A stretch of 20,298 nucleotides of DNA, from the IMG/VR virus record IMGVR_UViG_3300020192_000089, positions 1-20,298 of that record. One strand, given 5' to 3'. The translations under genes and the position numbers were made by a program. The notes beneath the pieces are model-generated. The model did no database searches and had not been told where the DNA came from. It saw only the letters and a list, made by a program, of their open reading frames with translations. Of the stretch, positions 2,282-18,350 are shown in pieces. Numbering within the stretch: position 1 is the stretch's first letter; every line of letters begins with the position of its first letter. The DNA is from a virus.

Positions 2282-2608
2282 TTGTGATCCTGTCTCGCCG
2301 CTTCGGCAACGTCGGGCACCGGGGCGTCTACGGGTGCCGCCAGATGAACGTGAATCTGTGTCCACATCAACCTCGACCGCATGCGCCTTTTCACCCTCGC
2401 GCGCCAGCACCTTCGCGCGTAGATCAGACCAGCCCGGCGTTTTCCACCCGAGGGCGCAACAGGCATCGATAGCTTCTCGGTAGCCCGCTCTCCATGCTGA
2501 GAGGGTGGCGTCATGCGGGTTCTCGAACCAAAGCGAGAGGTTGGCTTGATACACGTCACGGAACCATGCCGCGTGACGCTCGCGCTCCTCGCGTAGGGGG
2601 TCACTCAT
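2278..2608 (-). pseudogene. Small accessory phage protein, frameshifted near its end
   Basis: It starts MSDPLREERERHAAWFRDVY and runs through a plausible helical domain (SAWRAGYREAIDACCALGW) to HAVEVDVDT. From there the same frame becomes Arg/Ser/Gly-rich noise that fuses into the next gene, whereas the +1 frame reads IHVHLAAPVDAPVPDVAEAA then RQDHK and stops at a TGA overlapping the next ATG, the junction style used throughout this operon. The AEAARQD peptide is also encoded in frame in the next gene, which supports this reading. The interval is 331 bases, one more than a whole number of codons, so a single surplus base near 2340-2355 would explain it. Start at 2608 is chosen because the ATG overlaps the upstream TGA and an identical start context recurs at 2913. 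Function unknown. Confidence 0.55.
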
Positions 2609-2913
2609 GGCTGGCCGATCCATGTCGTCATAGCTTCGTCGACGGCATCACGAGAGACACGCCAGTCGCGGTTGATGTGAGACAGCGGAAAATGGCTGCA
2701 GTTGGCGAGCAGCCAATCCAGCCGCTGTGTATCTGTCGGCGCGGCTCCTGTGGGGGCGCGGTGGTTCCAGTTTTCCTCGGGGCACATTGCGCCGCACGCC
2801 CGGCAGGTTATGCGGTTAAAGGATGGGCGGCCCTCGACCATCTGCGTGACGTGCTGCACTCCTTTGTCGCCATCGTCGCCACAAAATGGACAGGGCAACA
2901 GGGGGTCACTCAT
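2605..2913 (-). CDS. Lar-like zinc ribbon fused to an RLDWL-type phage module
   Basis: A 102-residue protein in two parts. Residues 7-52 match the Lar restriction-alleviation family: LPCPFCG (C8, C11), then ITCRACGAMC (C37, C40, C44) and the closing W-N-x-R. Lar of Rac prophage modulates type I restriction of unmodified DNA. Residues 53-59 are the linker APTGAAP. Residues 60-102 begin TDTQRLDWLLANC, a module widespread in small phage proteins, of unknown role. The linker DNA is part of a 26-bp sequence repeated exactly 585 bases upstream in another gene, so the two halves were probably joined at a boundary repeat. Start and stop each overlap neighbours by 4 bases. The Lar assignment of the first half is fairly secure by motif; antirestriction activity is inferred. 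Confidence 0.75.
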   Translation of the reverse strand: MSDPLLPCPFCGDDGDKGVQHVTQMVEGRPSFNRITCRACGAMCPEENWNHRAPTGAAPTDTQRLDWLLANCSHFPLSHINRDWRVSRDAVDEAMTTWIGQP

Positions 2914-4119
2914 GGCTGTCTCCGGAAGATTTCGGCGATGCGTTCAAATGCCCGCGCCATTTCCTCGCGTCTATGCTCCGACGAGGGCAACCAGAACGTT
3001 ACGGCCGAGCGGTCGTCATCCTGCGGCGGGTGATGCAGCATCGGCGACGAGTGCAGGATCAGTTGCGCAGCAACGTATGGTCGCCCGGTGTTGCTGACCT
3101 TTTCTAGGCGCACAACCTCGTCGGTCAACTCCTGGCTGTATACGTTGATCCTCATGGCGCTGCTCCTGTGGGGCCAACGGCGTCTCGGAGGTTGGCCTCT
3201 AACTCCCGCCGCTCGGACCCGGCACGATCCGTGGTCGCGCACTCCACCGCAGTCTGCGCGTAATTGTCGGCGTCGGCCATCAGCGCGAGGATCAACGCCT
3301 CGTCGCCGGCTTTCCAAGCGGCCGGCGCGGCTCCTGTGGGGGCGCGGTCGTCGGAGATGCGCGCCTCGATTTCGCCGTCGCAGTCGTGCGCCCACCCGTG
3401 GCGGTCGATAGACTCCATGCGGGACTGGAGGTATTCGTAGCCCCACTTGTAGGCCGCTTCGGTAACGTCGGGCACCGTGGCTGTGCGGGCGAACGGGTCA
3501 GGACCACCGAGTGAGGGGTGCAGGCCACGATTGCATTCGACAATATCAAAATACCGGCGTGCGATTTTCCAGTCGGCCTCGTTGATCCGCGCGTCGTCCC
3601 CGTGGTAGTTCAACGCAAAGGCAAGTTCTCGCTCCGTTATCGCGGGCGCCCCCGACGCCGGGGCGGTGAGTGCGGCGCGGGCGAGCTTGACGATGCGTGT
3701 GTAAATTGTGATCGGGCCAAGCCCATCCAATGCGGCGACCGACAACCCGTGCGCGAAAATCATTCCTTCGGCCAGCGTTTCATCGGCCGGCGCGGCTTTG
3801 TAGTTGATACGATCCGCTGCCTCTCGGGTGAGAGGCGGCGCTGCTCCTGTGGGGGCGGGCGGGGTGGCGGACAGCCAGCATTTGCCGCACTTGATGGTCT
3901 TCGCGCCACCCACAAACTCTATAGTCAGGCTGTCGCCGTGGCACCACTCGTCATCAATGTAGAGCACCGAGCAGGCGCTGTGACAGGTCGGGCACGCCCA
4001 TTTGCACACGCTGTACTTTGTGCCGGCACGGGTCTCTCGATCTGAGCGCTCCTGCAAGACGCCGCAGTAGTCTTCCGCCACCACCGGCTCACCGGCGCTC
4101 GCTGCTCCTGTGGGGGCGG
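2738..4119. repeat. Dispersed boundary repeat (core GCTCCTGTGGGG) in five copies
   Basis: The 12-base core occurs at about 2744, 3162, 3329, 3842 and 4104 on the plus strand. The 26 bases at 2738-2763 and 3323-3348 are identical. Read on the coding (minus) strand it is CCCCACAGGAGC, which contains a consensus AGGAG Shine-Dalgarno sequence and encodes PTGA. At 3155-3175 it serves as ribosome binding site plus stop-start overlap. In the other four copies the start codon is absent and the sequence is read through as an APTGAA linker. It resembles the boundary sequences described between nin-region genes of lambdoid phages. Confidence 0.85.
2910..3155 (-). CDS. Conserved phage hypothetical protein (MRINVYSQELT family)
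   Basis: An 81-residue protein starting MRINVYSQELTDEV and containing HHPPQDDDRSAVTFWLPSS. I recognise this layout (RINVY.EELT at the start, then a D-D-D-R-S-A-[VI]-T-[FI]-W core and a helical C terminus) from small phage accessory proteins of unknown function. The start at 3155 rather than further upstream is fixed by this conserved start and by the ACAGGAG Shine-Dalgarno sequence 8 bases ahead. That Shine-Dalgarno sequence is itself part of the repeated boundary sequence and encodes the PTGAAP tail of the upstream gene, so the two genes share it through an ATGA overlap. Confidence 0.75.
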   Translation of the reverse strand: MRINVYSQELTDEVVRLEKVSNTGRPYVAAQLILHSSPMLHHPPQDDDRSAVTFWLPSSEHRREEMARAFERIAEIFRRQP

Positions 4120-4240
4120 CGTAGTAGACCGGAAAGGCGTTGATGGGCCGCGGGTCGATCTCGCAAACCGAGAGGCGGCGGGCCGCCCCTTCCCTCCAAA
4201 GCCACGCCACCGGCTCGCGCGAGTCGAATTCGTCTGTCAT
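3152..4240 (-). CDS. Mosaic Ead/Ea22-like phage protein with four APTGAA linkers
   Basis: A 362-residue patchwork. Residues 1-41 (EPVAWLWREG to FPVYYA) form the 'PVAW...PVYAAP' module common in phage accessory proteins. Residues 50-128 hold a cysteine-rich putative zinc ribbon (C79, C83, C86, C90, C100, C118, C121). Residues 136-299 are a mixed region including TREAADRIN, TERELAFALN and VPDVTEAAYKWGYEY. Residues 307-356 (DEALILALMADADNYAQTA to ELEANLRDAV) resemble Ea22-type segments. The parts are separated by APTGAAS (42-48), APTGAAP (129-135), APTGAAP (300-306) and a terminal PTGAAP. Function unknown; Ead/Ea22-type genes sit in early-left operons and are dispensable. The ATG at 4240 has an AAGGA upstream. 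Internal fusion of formerly separate small genes is the likeliest origin. Confidence 0.7.
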   Translation of the reverse strand: MTDEFDSREPVAWLWREGAARRLSVCEIDPRPINAFPVYYAAPTGAASAGEPVVAEDYCGVLQERSDRETRAGTKYSVCKWACPTCHSACSVLYIDDEWCHGDSLTIEFVGGAKTIKCGKCWLSATPPAPTGAAPPLTREAADRINYKAAPADETLAEGMIFAHGLSVAALDGLGPITIYTRIVKLARAALTAPASGAPAITERELAFALNYHGDDARINEADWKIARRYFDIVECNRGLHPSLGGPDPFARTATVPDVTEAAYKWGYEYLQSRMESIDRHGWAHDCDGEIEARISDDRAPTGAAPAAWKAGDEALILALMADADNYAQTAVECATTDRAGSERRELEANLRDAVGPTGAAP

Positions 4241-4261: not shown

Positions 4262-4483
4262 CTACGCATAGACGTTTAGCCGGCTGATCGTCACATTGAG
4301 CGCGTCAAGCTCGCCCATCTTTTTGATCTTCCAAAGCACGCGCCGGCCGTGCCAGCCGTTGCTCGACCCTTGGTCGATGTGGTGAGCATCAGAAGGGCCG
4401 GGCGCATCGCAAACCGAGCAGTCGAGTTCCTTGACCCTGCCAATATGCTGGCGAGCCTTGGCGCTGATGTTCTTGCTGTTCAC
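4262..4483 (-). CDS. Ref-like HNH nuclease with central segment deleted
   Basis: A 73-residue protein starting at a GTG that overlaps the upstream stop (GTGA). It reads NSKNISAKARQHIGRVKELD, then CSVCDAPGPSDAHHI, then SSNGWHGRRVLWKIKKMGELD, closing with ALNVTISRL. Both flanks match the phage Ref family (RecA-dependent HNH nuclease, Cys4/HNH type), whose usual order is C-x2-C, S-x-AHHI, then a stretch holding the second Cys pair and a histidine (PLC-x-DCH-x-G), then N-G-x-HG and a helix ending ELDALN. Here the middle stretch of about 15-17 residues between HHIDQG and NGWHG is missing, still in frame. Loss of the second zinc knuckle should abolish normal zinc binding and probably cleavage. A deletion is inferred from memory of family layout. 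Confidence 0.65.
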   Translation of the reverse strand: MNSKNISAKARQHIGRVKELDCSVCDAPGPSDAHHIDQGSSNGWHGRRVLWKIKKMGELDALNVTISRLNVYA

Positions 4484-4971
4484 GCCGCGAGCCTTGATTG
4501 AGAGCCAAGTGCCGGCACCGCTTCGGGCATGTAGGCGGGCAGCAATTGGAGGGCATACAGACCGCCCTTCGTAAAGCCGCAGGGCTTGAACCCGGCGCGC
4601 AAGTAGCAGCGGCCCGGATCGCGCTTGTGGCGCGTTTTCTTGGCATCGACAAAGGTAACCATGCCCAAAGATGGCGGCGCGCCGTAGTAGGCGCGCGTCG
4701 CGGCTACGGCTTCGCGGATCAGTTCGGAAGAAAGGTGCTTGCTTTCGTTGCGGAAGGCACTGCACATCCACGCCCCGGCCCATGCGTGCTTGACGTACTC
4801 GGCGAACGGAAACGAGGTAATCCAAAAGGCCTCCAGCGGCTGCGTCTTGAAAACGACGCAGCTGCCGGGCGGGGCGAACTGAGGCGAGCCGATCTTCTGC
4901 CGGTTGTAATGCCGGTCAGCGAGCGGCAAAACCTCGGCGTCGGCGCGGTGCGATAGGTGCCAGCGCATCAC
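4480..4971 (-). CDS. GNAT-like conserved phage protein
   Basis: A 163-residue protein: LPLADRHYNRQKIGSPQFAP near the start, ITSFPFAEYVKHAWAGAW in the middle, SSELIREAVAATRAYYG as an amphipathic helix, then SLGMVTFVDA, and RDPGRCYLRAGFKPCGFTK towards the end. The last block (G-x-x-Y-x-x-A-G-F, then strand) and the preceding hydrophobic strand recall the closing part of GNAT acyltransferases. The HY near the N terminus and overall order are reminiscent of Mom-type DNA-modifying GNATs, though I cannot show this without a profile search. It is commonly next to Ref-like HNH genes in phages, as here. GTG at 4971 overlaps the upstream TGA and has GGAGG 7 bases ahead; ATG at 4968 is an equally possible start. 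Confidence 0.6.
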   Translation of the reverse strand: MMRWHLSHRADAEVLPLADRHYNRQKIGSPQFAPPGSCVVFKTQPLEAFWITSFPFAEYVKHAWAGAWMCSAFRNESKHLSSELIREAVAATRAYYGAPPSLGMVTFVDAKKTRHKRDPGRCYLRAGFKPCGFTKGGLYALQLLPAYMPEAVPALGSQSRLAA

Positions 4972-5619: not shown

Positions 5620-5664
5620 AAAAGCGGCGTGATCGGATAAACGAGAACAGAGGATCACGCCGCT
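5620..5664 (-). terminator. Leftward terminator overlapping the end of ninB
   Basis: A perfect 12-bp inverted repeat (5653-5664 and 5623-5634, AGCGGCGTGATC and its complement) with an 18-base loop. On the minus strand it is followed by TTTT (5623-5620), fitting an intrinsic terminator for the early-left operon. The ninB stop codon and last codons lie within the stem. It would protect the oppositely oriented ribbon-helix-helix gene from incoming transcription. Confidence 0.65.
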
Positions 5665-5678
5665 ACCTCCGCAAACTC
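5654..5678. repeat. 25-bp direct repeat, ninB copy
   Basis: Identical to 4967-4991. It encodes the end of NinB (EFAEVAA and stop) and holds a GGAGGT ribosome binding site followed by GTGA. At the other copy this site starts the GNAT-like gene; here no convincing gene follows. Confidence 0.9.
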
Positions 5679-6056
5679 AACGCCGCGCTCTACGGCCCAT
5701 GCCTGCACGAAGTCCACCAACTCCGCGCACTCGGCTTTAGTCAGCTTGGAAGTGCGGCGGAAAACAACGTCGATCCCGTGCCCGTCTATTGCCGGCAGCA
5801 CCTCGACCGACTCGCCCCGAGCCCTAAGCCACGCCGCGGTACAGAGCCGCTTCCACGTCTCTACGTCCCGCTTCTTGCCGGCCCACTCGACCGACCGGGC
5901 TATCGCGGCCAGGAGGGCATGCAAAAGGGCGTTTTGCGCCGTGTTGCGCGATGGTTCCTTGATCTCGACGACATACCCGTCCGGAGCGTCTGCCACGGCA
6001 GCGAGCGCACGGCCGCGGGCGGTCATGTGCACCAGGATAAAAACGCGCTTGCTCAT
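5655..6056 (-). CDS. ninB: NinB/Orf-type recombination mediator
   Basis: A 133-residue protein of the NinB (lambda Orf) family. It has the N-terminal strand region, then VEIKEPSRNTAQNALLHALL (about 30-49), the W-K-R-L-C-T-A-A-W block, the IDGHGIDVVFRRTSKLTKAE segment and a C-terminal helix ending in AWAVERGVEF. Lambda Orf binds single-stranded DNA and SSB and stands in for RecFOR in loading recombinase. Here it follows an annealase and an exonuclease in one operon, with a 4-base overlap to the exonuclease gene, giving a complete phage recombination set. Its last codons form the 25-bp repeat and the stem of the terminator. Confidence 0.88.
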   Translation of the reverse strand: MSKRVFILVHMTARGRALAAVADAPDGYVVEIKEPSRNTAQNALLHALLAAIARSVEWAGKKRDVETWKRLCTAAWLRARGESVEVLPAIDGHGIDVVFRRTSKLTKAECAELVDFVQAWAVERGVEFAEVAA

Positions 6057-6694
6057 GCTGCGATCGGCAACGCGCGAACCTCTGCCTCCTCGGCGCGCAC
6101 CTCCTCCATGAACAGGGCGACAGCTAGCTGCAGGCCGGCGATATATGTTTCGTCGCGCTCAATGCGCCGCACGATCAACTGCAAGTGATCGGGAAACTCG
6201 GGGTTGAAAGAAGCGAACTTCCACCACGCCCGGCCGCTGATCCATATGCAGCCCTGCACCTGGGCGACGTACTTCGCCGGGCAGGTGTTGGGAGGCAGGC
6301 GCAGGTATTCGAGATGCGCCGTCAACTCCGGGCACTTTATCTCGATCCCGCCCTCTTCACCGATCAGGCCATCCGGCGATGCGCCGGCCTCAATCTCGTC
6401 ATGGCGCAAAAAGCCGACAGCGTCCACAAACTCGCCCGTGAGGCTTTCGTAGGCCGCGCGGGCGATCGGCTCCCGCTCGGTGCCTTGCTGCATCGCAGCC
6501 GAGGTGAAGGACTGCACCGGAATCCCGGTCAGGCGCTCGACGACCAGCTTCGCCCGCAGGTTGCGCCGGCTGGCAGCCTCCTTTTCGCTGCCGCGGCCTT
6601 TCGCCAGGATATCGGCAAAGCCAGAGGCGGTAGCGATGCCAACCCTGGCGGTTCTCCACTCGTCGGAGCCCTGGGGCATGTCGAGGCGGATCAC
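6053..6694 (-). CDS. YqaJ-type viral recombinase / lambda-exonuclease-like nuclease
   Basis: A 213-residue PD-(D/E)XK nuclease. MPQGSDEWRTARVGIATASG (6-25) is the family's opening motif. MQQGTEREPIARAAYE (68-83) holds the conserved glutamates. GASPDGLIGEEGGIEIKCP (104-122) is the catalytic core, with D108, E118 and K120. AQVQGCIWISGR (about 144-155) is the conserved Q-x-x-G-x-x-W segment. These enzymes degrade 5' strands of double-stranded DNA processively and work with a single-strand annealing protein. The ERF gene immediately upstream (4-base overlap) is the evident partner. Acts in the cytoplasm on replicating phage DNA. All catalytic residues are present. Confidence 0.93.
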   Translation of the reverse strand: MIRLDMPQGSDEWRTARVGIATASGFADILAKGRGSEKEAASRRNLRAKLVVERLTGIPVQSFTSAAMQQGTEREPIARAAYESLTGEFVDAVGFLRHDEIEAGASPDGLIGEEGGIEIKCPELTAHLEYLRLPPNTCPAKYVAQVQGCIWISGRAWWKFASFNPEFPDHLQLIVRRIERDETYIAGLQLAVALFMEEVRAEEAEVRALPIAA

Positions 6695-7287
6695 TGTCTC
6701 GGCTCCCGGTCGGCCTGGCCAGCGGCGTCCTTCAGCGCGGGGCTATGTCGCGCCCACCACGGCCCCGGAGGCTTGACCTTCTCGAAATGCGCCTTAAGGG
6801 CGGCCGATCCTTGCATCGAAACCTCGCGGAACTCGTCGAGCAGCGCGTCCTCCTCGCTGCCGTCGTCGTCGAGCTCGGTGTCCATGCTCATCGTCGGCAC
6901 GACGAACAACTGAAACAGGGCGGTGCGGAAGGCGACGGACTGCGCCTTGATAACGGCCTTGTCGCCAGAGTCCATCGCCTCGCCGTAGGCTTCGCTGGTG
7001 ACGAATGAATCGTCCTCGGCGGTGAAGGTGAAGGTACCTTTGAGCGTGACGAACCGGGTCGCCTTGGCGTCCTTCGGGTCGCCCTTAACCCGGTCGATGA
7101 TGCTCAGGTCGGCATATCGCGAAGCGACCGTGATGCCGTGATTCACCATGATTGGCGACATCTCGTTCATAGCCTGCTCGACACCGCGAAACTTGTAGTT
7201 CTGCGCCTCGTTCTTTTGCGTCTTGCCAATGCCGATCCTGCAGATGTCGCGCATCGCTGCATTGAGGGCCGTTTGAATCCTGCTCAT
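6691..7287 (-). CDS. erf: ERF-family single-strand annealing protein
   Basis: A 198-residue protein of the ERF superfamily. It begins MSRIQTALNAAMRDI and contains KNEAQNYKFRGVEQAMNEMS (about 23-42), the PIMVNHGITV strand, FTFTAEDDSFV, and the signature YGEAMDSGDKAVIKAQSVA (about 108-126) followed by FRTALFQLFVVPT. ERF proteins form rings that anneal complementary single strands and can circularise phage genomes. The acidic tail (TELDDDGSEEDALLDE) could bind partners such as SSB, as in other annealases. The start at 7287 is chosen for the family start and the 4-base overlap with the upstream gene. The frame is open further upstream to 7416 but is arginine-rich there and antiphase to another gene. 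Confidence 0.9.
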   Translation of the reverse strand: MSRIQTALNAAMRDICRIGIGKTQKNEAQNYKFRGVEQAMNEMSPIMVNHGITVASRYADLSIIDRVKGDPKDAKATRFVTLKGTFTFTAEDDSFVTSEAYGEAMDSGDKAVIKAQSVAFRTALFQLFVVPTMSMDTELDDDGSEEDALLDEFREVSMQGSAALKAHFEKVKPPGPWWARHSPALKDAAGQADREPRQ

Positions 7288-7448
7288 GGTTGCGTGTCCG
7301 TTGTTGCGAGGGCGCGCTTGGCGCGGGATTGCCGCTGCCCTTCGGCCCTGCGATCGGCCCGGGCGACGCGCGCCTCGAGCTGCGCCACGTAGGCGAGCGA
7401 CGGCGACTTGCCGCACAGGGCGGCCCAGAGGTTGCGGAGGTAGTTCAT
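7284..7448 (-). CDS. Small helical hypothetical protein
   Basis: A 54-residue protein: a hydrophobic/aromatic start (MNYLRNLWAALCGK), then a charged helix with a heptad-like pattern (YVAQLEARVARADRRAEGQR) suggesting a short coiled coil. Family not recognised. ATG 7448 overlaps the stop of the upstream gene, and the stop overlaps the erf start, so it is embedded in the early-left operon. A slightly longer frame upstream would overlap the preceding gene and is less likely. Confidence 0.6.
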   Translation of the reverse strand: MNYLRNLWAALCGKSPSLAYVAQLEARVARADRRAEGQRQSRAKRALATTDTQP

Positions 7449-12844: not shown

Positions 12845-12900
12845 GCGACCCCTTACCGCTTTTGCCGGCCGACTCCAGCGATGGGTGGGCCCACGGATGA
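12841..12900 (+). CDS. 19-codon mini-gene with duplicated tail
   Basis: VSDPLPLLPADSSDGWAHG, starting at a GTG that overlaps the upstream TGA and ending in a TGA that overlaps the ATG of the helicase-methyltransferase. The last eight residues copy the tail of the DUF7696-like gene (one change, Y to W), and the DNA at 12874-12903 is a slightly diverged direct repeat of 12661-12690. Probably a seam left by insertion of the 58-residue gene, kept as a translational bridge. Confidence 0.4.
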   Translation: MSDPLPLLPADSSDGWAHG

Positions 12901-15383
12901 GCGACTACCTCGCCTTCCTGCGCGAGAAGATCAAACTCGCCAGCTTCAAGGGCTTCGAGGTCGCGCCCGACGAGCTGCACCCGTGCCTGTTCCCTCACCA
13001 GCGCGACATCGTTCGCTGGGCCGTGCTGGGTGGCAACCGCGCCATCTTCGCCGCCTTCGGCCTCGGCAAGTCGGTCATGCAGTGCGAGTGGCAGCGTCAG
13101 ATCGTGCCCAAGGCGGGCGGGCCCGGCCTGACCGTCTGCCCGCTCGGCGTGCGGCAGGAGTTGATCCGCGACGCGCAGATGGTCGGCATCGAGCTTCGAT
13201 TCATCCGTTCGGCCGCCGAAATGACAGCTGGGCACGAGTTCTACATCACGAACTATGAGACGGTCCGCGACGGCAAGCTCGACCCCGCGATCTTCGCGGC
13301 GACCAGCCTCGACGAGGCCGCCGTGTTGCGCAGCTTTGGATCGAAGACGTTTCAGGAGTTCCTGCCGATGTTCGCATCGGTGCCGTTCAAGCTGGTCAAC
13401 ACCGCAACGCCGAGTCCGAATCGCTACAAGGAACTGATCCACTACGCCGCCTACCTCGGCGTCATGGATAGCGGCCAGGCCCTGACGCGATTCTTCCAGC
13501 GCGACGCCGAGAAGGCCGGCAATCTGACGCTCTACCCGCACAAGGAAACCGAGTTCTGGCTCTGGGTTTCATCGTGGGCGATCTTCCTTCAGCGCCCGAG
13601 CGATCTCGGCTATTCGGACGAGGGCTACGACCTGCCCGAACTCGACATCCGTTACCACGAGGTGCCGACCGACTACGCGAAGGCCGGTAGCGAGCGCGAC
13701 GGTCAGGCGATCATGTTCACGGATCCTGCGCTCGGTCTTTCCGCCGCCGCCGCCGAGAAGCGCGACAGCATGCCCGGCCGGGTCGCCAAGGTCCGCGAGC
13801 TCGTCGCCGAAACCGACGATCACTTCGTCATCTGGCACGACCTCGAGGCCGAGCGCCACGCGCTGCAGGGTGCGATCCCCGAGGCGGTGAGCGTCTGGGG
13901 GGGCCAAGACCTCGAAGAGCGCGAGCGCCGCATCGTCGGCTTCGGCGACGGCGAGTTCCGCGTCCTCTCGACGAAACCGATCATCGCCGGCAGCGGCTGC
14001 AATTTTCAGCGCCACTGCCACCGCGAAGTCTTCGCCGGCATCGGCTTTAAGTTCGCCGATTTCATCCAGGCCATCCACCGGGTGCAGCGCTTCCAACAAG
14101 CGCACCAGGTCCGCATCGACATCGTCTACAGCGAAGCCGAACGCGAGATCTTGCGCACGCTTCTGGCGAAGTGGGCGCAGCACAAGGAACAGGTACAAGT
14201 CATGACGGAGATCATCAAAAAGTACGGCCTCAACCATCTGGCCATGCAGGAGACGCTTGCCAGGACCCTCGGCCTCGAACGGATCGAGGTGAAGGGCGAG
14301 CGCTTCTGCGTCGCGAACAACGACTGCGTGGAAGAGGCAAAGCGGCAACCGGAGGCGAGCGTCGACCTCATCGTCACCTCGATCCCCTTCGCCAATCACT
14401 ACGAGTATTCGCCCTCGTACAACGACTTCGGGCATACCGACGACAACGCGCACTTCTGGGCGCAGATGGACTTCCTGACGCCGGAGCTGTTGCGCATGCT
14501 CAAGCCAGGTCGGATCTACGCCTGCCACGTCAAGGACCGGATCAACTTCGGCAACGTCACCGGCTTCGGGTTGCCGACATCGAGCCCCTTCCACTGCGAA
14601 GCGACGATGCACGGCATCAAGCACGGCTTCGACTACCTCGGCATGCTGACGGTCGTCACCGACGTCGTGCGCGAGAACAACCAGACCTACCGCCTCGGCT
14701 ATACCGAGATGCGCAAGGACGGTACGAAGATGGGGGTCGGCTCGCCCGAGTACATCCTGCTCTTCCACAAGCCGCAGAGCGACCGCGCCCGCGGCTACGC
14801 CGACGTCCCCGTCACGAAAACTAAGGCGCAGTACTCCCTCGCGCGCTGGCAGGTCGACGCTCACTCCTTCTGGCGATCGAGCGGGAACCGGAGCCTCACC
14901 GCCGAAGAGATGGCCGGCTACGGTCCCGCCAAGCTGGCAAAGATGTTCACCGACTACAGCCTGCAGGAGGTGTACGACTACGAGTTCCACGTCAAGATCG
15001 GCGAGGAACTGCAGGCCAAGGGAGCTTTGCCCTCGACCTTCATGAGCTTAGCTCCGGGCAGCCATTCGCCCGATGTCTGGCACGACGTGCTGCGCATGAA
15101 GACCTTCAACGGCGAGCAGGCGAACCGGGCTGTCGAAAAGCATGTCTGCCCTCTGCAATTTGACATCGTGGACCGGCTGATCGAGCGCTATAGCAACAAG
15201 GGCGAACACGTCTACGATCCGTTCTCTGGCCTTGGAACCGTGCCCGCGCGGGCCGTTGCGCTCGGCCGCACCGGCGGCGGGTCGGAGTTGAACCCAGCCT
15301 ACTTCCTAGACCAGGTGCACTACCTCAAGGCCGCGGAACGCGAGTTCGCGATGCCCGACCTGTTCGACCTCGAGGCCGCGTGA
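12897..15383 (+). CDS. SF2 helicase fused to a DNA methyltransferase
   Basis: An 828-residue protein. The N-terminal half is a SNF2/DEAD-like ATPase: LFPHQRDIVRWAV (Q-motif region), FAAFGLGKSVM (Walker A, about 54-64), SLDEAAVLR (Walker B with DEAA, about 137-145), LVNTATPSPNRYKEL (motif III type), and FIQAIHRVQRFQQAHQVRID (motif VI, about 389-408). The C-terminal half is a beta-class amino-methyltransferase: VDLIVTSIPFANHYEY (motif IV, SIPF, about 490-505) precedes DPFSGLGTVPARAVALGR (motif I, AdoMet site, about 774-791), followed by SELNPAYF. The product would methylate adenine-N6 or cytosine-N4, perhaps while translocating on DNA. I recall similar fusions in other phages. ATG 12897 is chosen over GTG 12885 because it overlaps the upstream stop. 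Antirestriction or replication control are both possible roles. Confidence 0.88.
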   Translation: MSDYLAFLREKIKLASFKGFEVAPDELHPCLFPHQRDIVRWAVLGGNRAIFAAFGLGKSVMQCEWQRQIVPKAGGPGLTVCPLGVRQELIRDAQMVGIELRFIRSAAEMTAGHEFYITNYETVRDGKLDPAIFAATSLDEAAVLRSFGSKTFQEFLPMFASVPFKLVNTATPSPNRYKELIHYAAYLGVMDSGQALTRFFQRDAEKAGNLTLYPHKETEFWLWVSSWAIFLQRPSDLGYSDEGYDLPELDIRYHEVPTDYAKAGSERDGQAIMFTDPALGLSAAAAEKRDSMPGRVAKVRELVAETDDHFVIWHDLEAERHALQGAIPEAVSVWGGQDLEERERRIVGFGDGEFRVLSTKPIIAGSGCNFQRHCHREVFAGIGFKFADFIQAIHRVQRFQQAHQVRIDIVYSEAEREILRTLLAKWAQHKEQVQVMTEIIKKYGLNHLAMQETLARTLGLERIEVKGERFCVANNDCVEEAKRQPEASVDLIVTSIPFANHYEYSPSYNDFGHTDDNAHFWAQMDFLTPELLRMLKPGRIYACHVKDRINFGNVTGFGLPTSSPFHCEATMHGIKHGFDYLGMLTVVTDVVRENNQTYRLGYTEMRKDGTKMGVGSPEYILLFHKPQSDRARGYADVPVTKTKAQYSLARWQVDAHSFWRSSGNRSLTAEEMAGYGPAKLAKMFTDYSLQEVYDYEFHVKIGEELQAKGALPSTFMSLAPGSHSPDVWHDVLRMKTFNGEQANRAVEKHVCPLQFDIVDRLIERYSNKGEHVYDPFSGLGTVPARAVALGRTGGGSELNPAYFLDQVHYLKAAEREFAMPDLFDLEAA

Positions 15384-17961: not shown

Positions 17962-18350
17962 GCAGCAGTTTTCGCAAGACGGTCGAGAAGTTCGCCGAGG
18001 CGCAGAGCGGCGATTGCATGCCTTGCCACTGGTGCCGGGCGCCGACGAAGCGCGAAACGCTCGCGCAGTACGGCGCCAGGTGCTTCTCGTGTTTCGAGGC
18101 GTACTGCCAAGAGCCGCAGGGCAAGGCGAAACCGCAGCCGAGCTACCGCAACGTGCTCGCCAAGCCGAGCCCCGAGGCCACTCCCCAGCAGATCGACGCC
18201 GCCAAGGCCGAAGCCCGGCGCAAGGCGATCGACTACGCCCGCAAGTTCGGGATCTCGCTCGACGAGGCGCAAACGCTGCTCGACGGCGGCAGAGATTCAC
18301 GCGCGCCCGCGTTTGCCGGGCACCAGGCGCGCGCGGAGGCAGGGCGGTGA
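17958..18350 (+). CDS. Zinc-ribbon phage protein downstream of the initiator
   Basis: A 130-residue protein: MSSSFRKTVEKFAEAQSGDC then MPCHWCRAPTKRETLAQYGA and RCFSCFEAYCQEPQ, with C20, C23, C26 and C42, C45, C50 as possible zinc ligands. A linker rich in A/K/P/Q leads to a C-terminal helix, IDYARKFGISLDEAQTLLDG. It occupies the place of the lambda P helicase loader but has no P-like or DnaC-like motif (no Walker A). A role in replication is possible by position only. ATGA overlap with the initiator gene fixes the start. Confidence 0.7.
   Translation: MSSSFRKTVEKFAEAQSGDCMPCHWCRAPTKRETLAQYGARCFSCFEAYCQEPQGKAKPQPSYRNVLAKPSPEATPQQIDAAKAEARRKAIDYARKFGISLDEAQTLLDGGRDSRAPAFAGHQARAEAGR

Follow-up and report, generated by a model that had tools for sequence, protein, structure and literature searches.

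For lambdoid phages, it has been proposed that homologous recombination swaps modules by acting on short, conserved boundary sequences (PMC3029335, PMC2327257, PMC3974807), and such sequences are said to be undetectable at most mosaic borders (PMC3029335). In the T-even phages, conserved motifs lie within the gene of the adhesin gp38 and recombination swaps the segments, as the title of Tetart et al. (1998), listed in PMC12529663, indicates. Cluster K mycobacteriophages carry Start-Associated Sequences, a 13-bp AGGAG repeat (GGGATAGGAGCCC) present at gene starts genome-wide, for which a role in translation initiation has been proposed (PMC3203893). Moreover, unrelated phage proteins share fragments by the shuffling of domains, and the genetic mechanism was left open in a text where the words "linker" and "boundary" are not used (PMC10684548). 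Here we describe a locus in a viral contig of 20,298 nt (IMG/VR record IMGVR_UViG_3300020192_000089, analysed over its whole length and called the window in the following), where a short translated repeat, the linker, probably serves as an in-frame, phase-fixed DNA joint in an early-gene locus that undergoes rapid shuffling in related phages, working by short-homology annealing.

The sequence GCTCCTGTGGGG is present in the window in five exact copies, at positions 2744, 3162, 3330, 3843 and 4104 (span 2744-4115), and is found nowhere else in it. By our arithmetic, about 0.002 copies of an exact 12-mer would be expected by chance in 20 kb on both strands; the expectation of 2.8 copies given by the program refers to the same 12-mer with up to two mismatches allowed. 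The five copies within one 1.4-kb stretch, which had already been noticed in a sequence-only reading of this DNA, were thus recovered, as were the 26 identical bases shared by two of them (those at 2737 and 3323, with 97% identity across 29 nt). All five linker copies translate in frame, on the minus strand, as (A/G)PTGAA(P/S), three of them between parts of the 362-aa ORF, one at its end (...DAVGPTGAAP-TGA) and one within the Lar-like gene (Table 1). The description of the copy at 3155 as a PTGAAP-stop combined with a Shine-Dalgarno sequence and an ATGA start also proved accurate, AGGAG being placed 7 nt ahead of the ATG from which the following gene (MRINVYSQ) is read.

Table 1. Features of the linker locus and recombination genes in the window.
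Feature	Position	Strand	Remarks
Fourth short repeat	2286..2308	-	23 nt exact, AEAARQD; second copy at 2065-2087
Gene-start cassette copy 2	2595..2613	-	CAGCCATGAGTGACCCCCT(ACGCGA); preceding gene ends IGQP-TGA
102-aa gene	2605..2913	-	MSDPLLPCPFCG...; weak Lar-like zinc ribbon, then linker, then RLDWL module
Linker copy 5	2737..2757	-	GCCCCCACAGGAGCCGCGCCG = APTGAAP; separates Lar-like zinc ribbon from RLDWL module
Gene-start cassette copy 1	2900..2918	-	CAGCCATGAGTGACCCCCT; Shine-Dalgarno GGAGA directly upstream; preceding gene ends RRQP-TGA
81-aa gene	2910..3155	-	MRINVYSQ...; phrog_20753, E 6e-37; ATGA start overlaps stop of 362-aa ORF
362-aa mosaic protein	3152..4240	-	parts divided by linkers; one part Cys-rich, zinc-ribbon-like
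Linker copy 4	3155..3175	-	GGCCCCACAGGAGCAGCGCCA = GPTGAAP; final residues of ORF 3152-4240
Linker copy 3	3323..3343	-	GCCCCCACAGGAGCCGCGCCG = APTGAAP; surrounding 32-nt block identical in G002
Third short repeat	3453..3481	-	29 nt, 93%, VPDVTEAA; second copy at 2297-2325
Linker copy 2	3836..3856	-	GCCCCCACAGGAGCAGCGCCG = APTGAAP; in frame within ORF 3152-4240
Linker copy 1	4097..4117	-	GCCCCCACAGGAGCAGCGAGC = APTGAAS; in frame within ORF 3152-4240
Gene, phrog_24928	4480..4971	-	in G005, the C-terminal part follows a mutated start cassette as a fusion
NinB/Orf recombination mediator	5655..6056	-	recombination gene
YqaJ-type phage recombination exonuclease	6053..6694	-	recombination gene
Erf-family single-strand annealing protein	6691..7299	-	recombination gene

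The 362-aa protein gave no match to Pfam or to any other family above the cut-off, and the label "Ead-like" (Ead/Ea22 family) that it had received is therefore not kept here. The Lar zinc ribbon assigned to 2605-2913 found weak support, with a match to phrog_599 (E 1.2e-4) and a Pfam Lar match below the cut-off (E 0.029). Beside the linker, the locus carries a second cassette (the MSDPL cassette, SD-CAGCCATGAGTGACCCCCTACG; the gene-start cassette of Table 1), made of a Shine-Dalgarno sequence, an ATGA stop-start and MSDPL (GGAGACAGCCATGAGTGACCCCCTACG). Between positions 1823 and 2608 of the window, no stop separates the second MSDPL gene from the one that follows (MKKTPW...), which is in the same frame; another frame offers a plausible end, IHVHLAAPVDAPVPDVAEAARQDHK-stop, and either a frameshift or a fusion is possible. 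A match to phage pMLP1 was discarded, as it belongs to the gene at about 4523-4928 and not to the linker repeat. In another part of the window (12885-15383), an 832-aa protein has a C-terminal N6_N4 DNA methylase domain, and its N-terminal half, which has no family match, looks helicase-like by eye.

The 22 linker copies, distributed over six records, are nearly all written as GCC CCC ACA GGA GCM GCG (M = A/C). Thr is encoded by ACA in 22/22 copies and every unchanged Gly codon is GGA, both codons being uncommon in the linker-bearing phages (8-12% and 10-11% of the respective codons); where comparable peptides occur at other places in these genomes, they are written with other codons. Besides the A/C third position, we counted two synonymous and four non-synonymous changes in the 22 copies. 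In an alignment of 21 copies, positions +0 to +16 are identical in at least 19/21, except for the A/C position (16/21), and identity drops to about half or below by 24-25 nt downstream. The conserved block is sharp-edged and measures about 19-24 nt (GCCCCCACAGGAGCMGCGCC), and, when linkers of different phages are compared, the identical stretch that surrounds them extends up to 27-32 nt. The peptide APTGAAP itself is common in viral contigs (at least 120 stretches). Among the matches listed, which come from other viral contigs, the core motif CCCACAGGAGC was absent from all 121 sites encoding APTGAAP, where the commonest codon set was seen four times. Compared with what the peptide alone would lead one to expect, the near-uniform codons of the linker copies and the absence of the core motif from these 121 sites support the conclusion that the linker DNA is kept well beyond the constraint of its peptide.

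In order to define the distribution of the linker DNA, viral contigs of IMG/VR were searched with the pattern GCCCCCACAGGAGCNGC, and 22 stretches were found, with multiple copies only in contigs G002, G003, G004 and G005, and a single copy in the related contig G001. As the contigs were selected by means of this pattern, one copy per contig is biased, while the remaining copies were found at the peptide level and are unbiased. About six related contigs carry the linker, none of them a sequenced isolate. Among the matches listed from GTDB contigs, the linker DNA occurred only as single hits, at about the number that we estimate for chance; it was found in none of 399 genomes of one bacterial order, and annotated phages gave weak, chance-level matches only. 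In the 80 loci around relatives of the 81-aa downstream gene, CCCACAGGAGC was likewise found in none (0/80). No confirmed relatives of the 362-aa or the 102-aa protein were detected in viral contigs, nor any of the 362-aa protein or the RLDWL module in annotated phages, and the closest recombinase relatives lie scattered.

Several other repeats and gene starts came up in these searches. The wider MSDP gene starts and locus L352 turned out to be unrelated coincidences, and the repeats in L156-L160, loci of relatives of the downstream gene, are palindromic, operator-like elements and not linkers; in L156, L157, L159 and L160 they take the form CGCGCCACG...TTTCGTGGCGCG at several places. Among other irregular repeats across the collected loci, surveyed without hit-by-hit inspection, no comparable system was recognised. 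In L149 (7675-8741), L173 (10384-11573) and L191 (9742-10920), segments containing many AAC codons are repeated with differences at A positions, which is reminiscent of a diversity-generating retroelement with its template and variable repeats.

The arrangement of the modules could be compared in contigs G002, G004 and G005. Over most of 37 kb, G002 and G004 share about 98-99.7% identity; the exception is mainly the linker locus, where their modules are permuted. Their right flanks correspond (G004 from 14038 onward, G002 from 5797 onward) in a block that starts at a linker, and G004 12911-13177 corresponds to a module of G005 (92% identity by BLAST, 97% across the main 225 nt) with a linker at each end. 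The claim that the repeat joins unrelated modules, originally made on the window, was borne out in these three contigs, where the flanks occur in other contexts and the breaks fall at the linker. Nine of the ten ends of homology blocks lie within 5 nt of a linker or of the second cassette, positions that make up 20% of the region, and 6 of 1719 circular shifts equalled the observed coincidence, a result that is indicative, given that the ten ends are mutually dependent, and biased, because identical linkers lengthen any block that reaches them. At the block end G004 13488, a linker is missing from the G004 sequence. The shuffling is seen in the relatives and not in the window itself, because the modules of the window found no relatives. 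Compared with G002, two indels were also observed in G004 (18102-18291 and 34788-35283), and direct repeats, about 20 nt and about 10 nt long, flank them.

The window encodes three proteins of the recombination families listed in Table 1, and G004 encodes a Sak4-like protein. Erf/Exo pairs are efficient at recombination between sequences that are short or have diverged (PMC3945230), and Red needs no more than about 30 bp of homology (PMC2327257), a requirement close to the length of the 27-32-nt identical linker blocks found here. We propose, tentatively, that these phages may keep a standard translated joint and use their own annealing recombinases to shuffle modules in frame. In such a model, the stretch of about 19-24 nt (GCCCCCACAGGAGCMGCGCC) would be held near-identical at module junctions, in one reading frame, and would be translated as a short Ala/Pro linker; annealing recombination (Erf, YqaJ and NinB in the window, Sak4 in G004) would pair linker copies within one genome or between co-infecting phages; and the exchange would permute, add or remove whole modules with the ORF left open and the linker restored, because all copies are in the same frame. 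The second cassette (GGAGACAGCCATGAGTGACCCCCTACG) would play the same role between genes, and its damage could fuse neighbours. From the recombination genes, the 27-32-nt blocks and the repeat-flanked indels taken together, we infer exchange at the linkers as the most economical account. The annealing proteins would then perform this exchange, homogenisation driven by it would keep the linker DNA identical, and the variety of modules would be under selection. That the module proteins could be small early host-takeover proteins is a guess.

A different origin had been suggested by the sequence-only reading, namely that the linker represents a fossilised boundary between genes, whose shared Shine-Dalgarno and stop-start were lost so that small genes fused and APTGAAP was left as a scar. 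Several observations agree with parts of this idea, starting from the conservation of the linker as DNA and the occurrence of modules in other contexts. One linked module, phrog_38816, which follows the linker in G004, exists as a stand-alone gene of 64-76 aa in five phages (X1, phiN3, Touem01, RDJL6 and RDJL Phi 1), and the start of this gene lies at about the point where the G004 linker joins. Furthermore, two apparent gene fusions through loss of a start or of a stop-start can be read from the relatives: GACCCCCTACGCGATGCC is a true start in G001 (MNDPLRD) and is ORF-internal in G002 (DPLRD), and in G005 the stop-start CAGCCATGAGT is changed to CAGCCATTGAGT (+1T), with one ORF then spanning two genes and a read-through segment that shares 89% identity with a portion of gene 4480-4971 of the window. 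Both of them, however, sit at the second cassette and not at APTGAAP. The copy at 3155, being at once a C-terminus and the Shine-Dalgarno sequence of the next gene, and the G001 copy, which matches it over 20 nt through the AT of ATG, also speak for a former boundary. The part that found no support is the derivation of APTGAAP from a ribosome-binding site, of which no case was found: the 3155 copy is the only one of 22 to precede a start codon, most copies are followed by GCGCC with no trace of an ATG, and CCCACAGGAGC was upstream of none of the stand-alone module genes examined, in line with its absence from the 80 loci mentioned above. Since the reverse route, by which a linker was co-opted as a Shine-Dalgarno sequence, may equally explain the 3155 copy, we consider the fossil boundary unlikely.

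Recent duplication, with modules and linkers moved as ordinary blocks, would attribute the identity of the linkers to their youth and to the peptide, and would give them no role in recombination. Part of the spread is recent, as some modules of G002, G004 and G005 are 97-98% identical. The modules of the window, on the contrary, have no detectable similarity to those of the other phages, except along 110 nt of a neighbouring gene, although the linkers of both match over up to 32 nt; in addition, synonymous changes are not above amino-acid changes and the blocks end at the linker in a non-random way, and we give this explanation little credit. The conservation of about 19 nt at the DNA level, with sharp edges, would also suit a functional DNA or RNA site tolerated in frame, such as a Chi-like hot spot, a protein-binding site or a small mobile repeat. 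This seems very improbable in view of copies that are always in one coding frame, with neither palindrome nor target duplication seen, and of the results for bacterial DNA given above (single occurrences among the GTDB matches listed and 0/399 genomes of one order). The main caveat is chimeric assembly at repeats, by which the permuted orders of G002, G004 and G005 would be artefacts: all the sequences are assembled contigs, repeats of 20-30 nt can cause false joins or contig ends in short-read assembly, those found here measure 20-32 nt, and contig G003 begins at a linker. Against this, the existence of the linker repeats is backed by several independent contigs, one of which is the window; G002 and G003 agree with 99.96% identity over 7.8 kb, and one module also occurs in stand-alone form. 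Chimeras are also disfavoured because the shared modules have diverged by 2-8% together with linked linker variants (GAA, CCT), and we attach a low probability to this explanation.

The in-frame DNA joint, which we regard as the probable function of the linker, resembles the lambdoid boundary sequences in being shared at the borders of otherwise unrelated modules and in the coincidence of breakpoints with it (within 5 nt for nine of the ten ends of blocks, in a biased test). Boundary sequences lie between genes, whereas the linker is mostly inside ORFs, is translated and fixes the reading phase; the MSDPL cassette does sit between genes as they do, the linker only at 3155. The motifs of T-even gp38 reportedly occupy matching positions within a single protein family; unlike them, the linker is found in several genes, where the modules that it connects are unrelated to one another and permuted in order. 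Both the MSDPL cassette and the copy at 3155 resemble Start-Associated Sequences, from which the linker as a whole differs, four of the five copies of the window being within ORFs and 1 of 22 copies being near a start. As judged from the open-licence literature, a translated, phase-fixed joint between unrelated modules, as seen in about six related contigs, appears to be new. At this locus, boundary sequences are plain, even within genes, and near-identical genomes are found in permuted states. The joint would provide a concrete, testable path to new multi-module proteins and a DNA handle for following module exchange and, if true, it would represent a viral counterpart to exon shuffling with phase-compatible introns.
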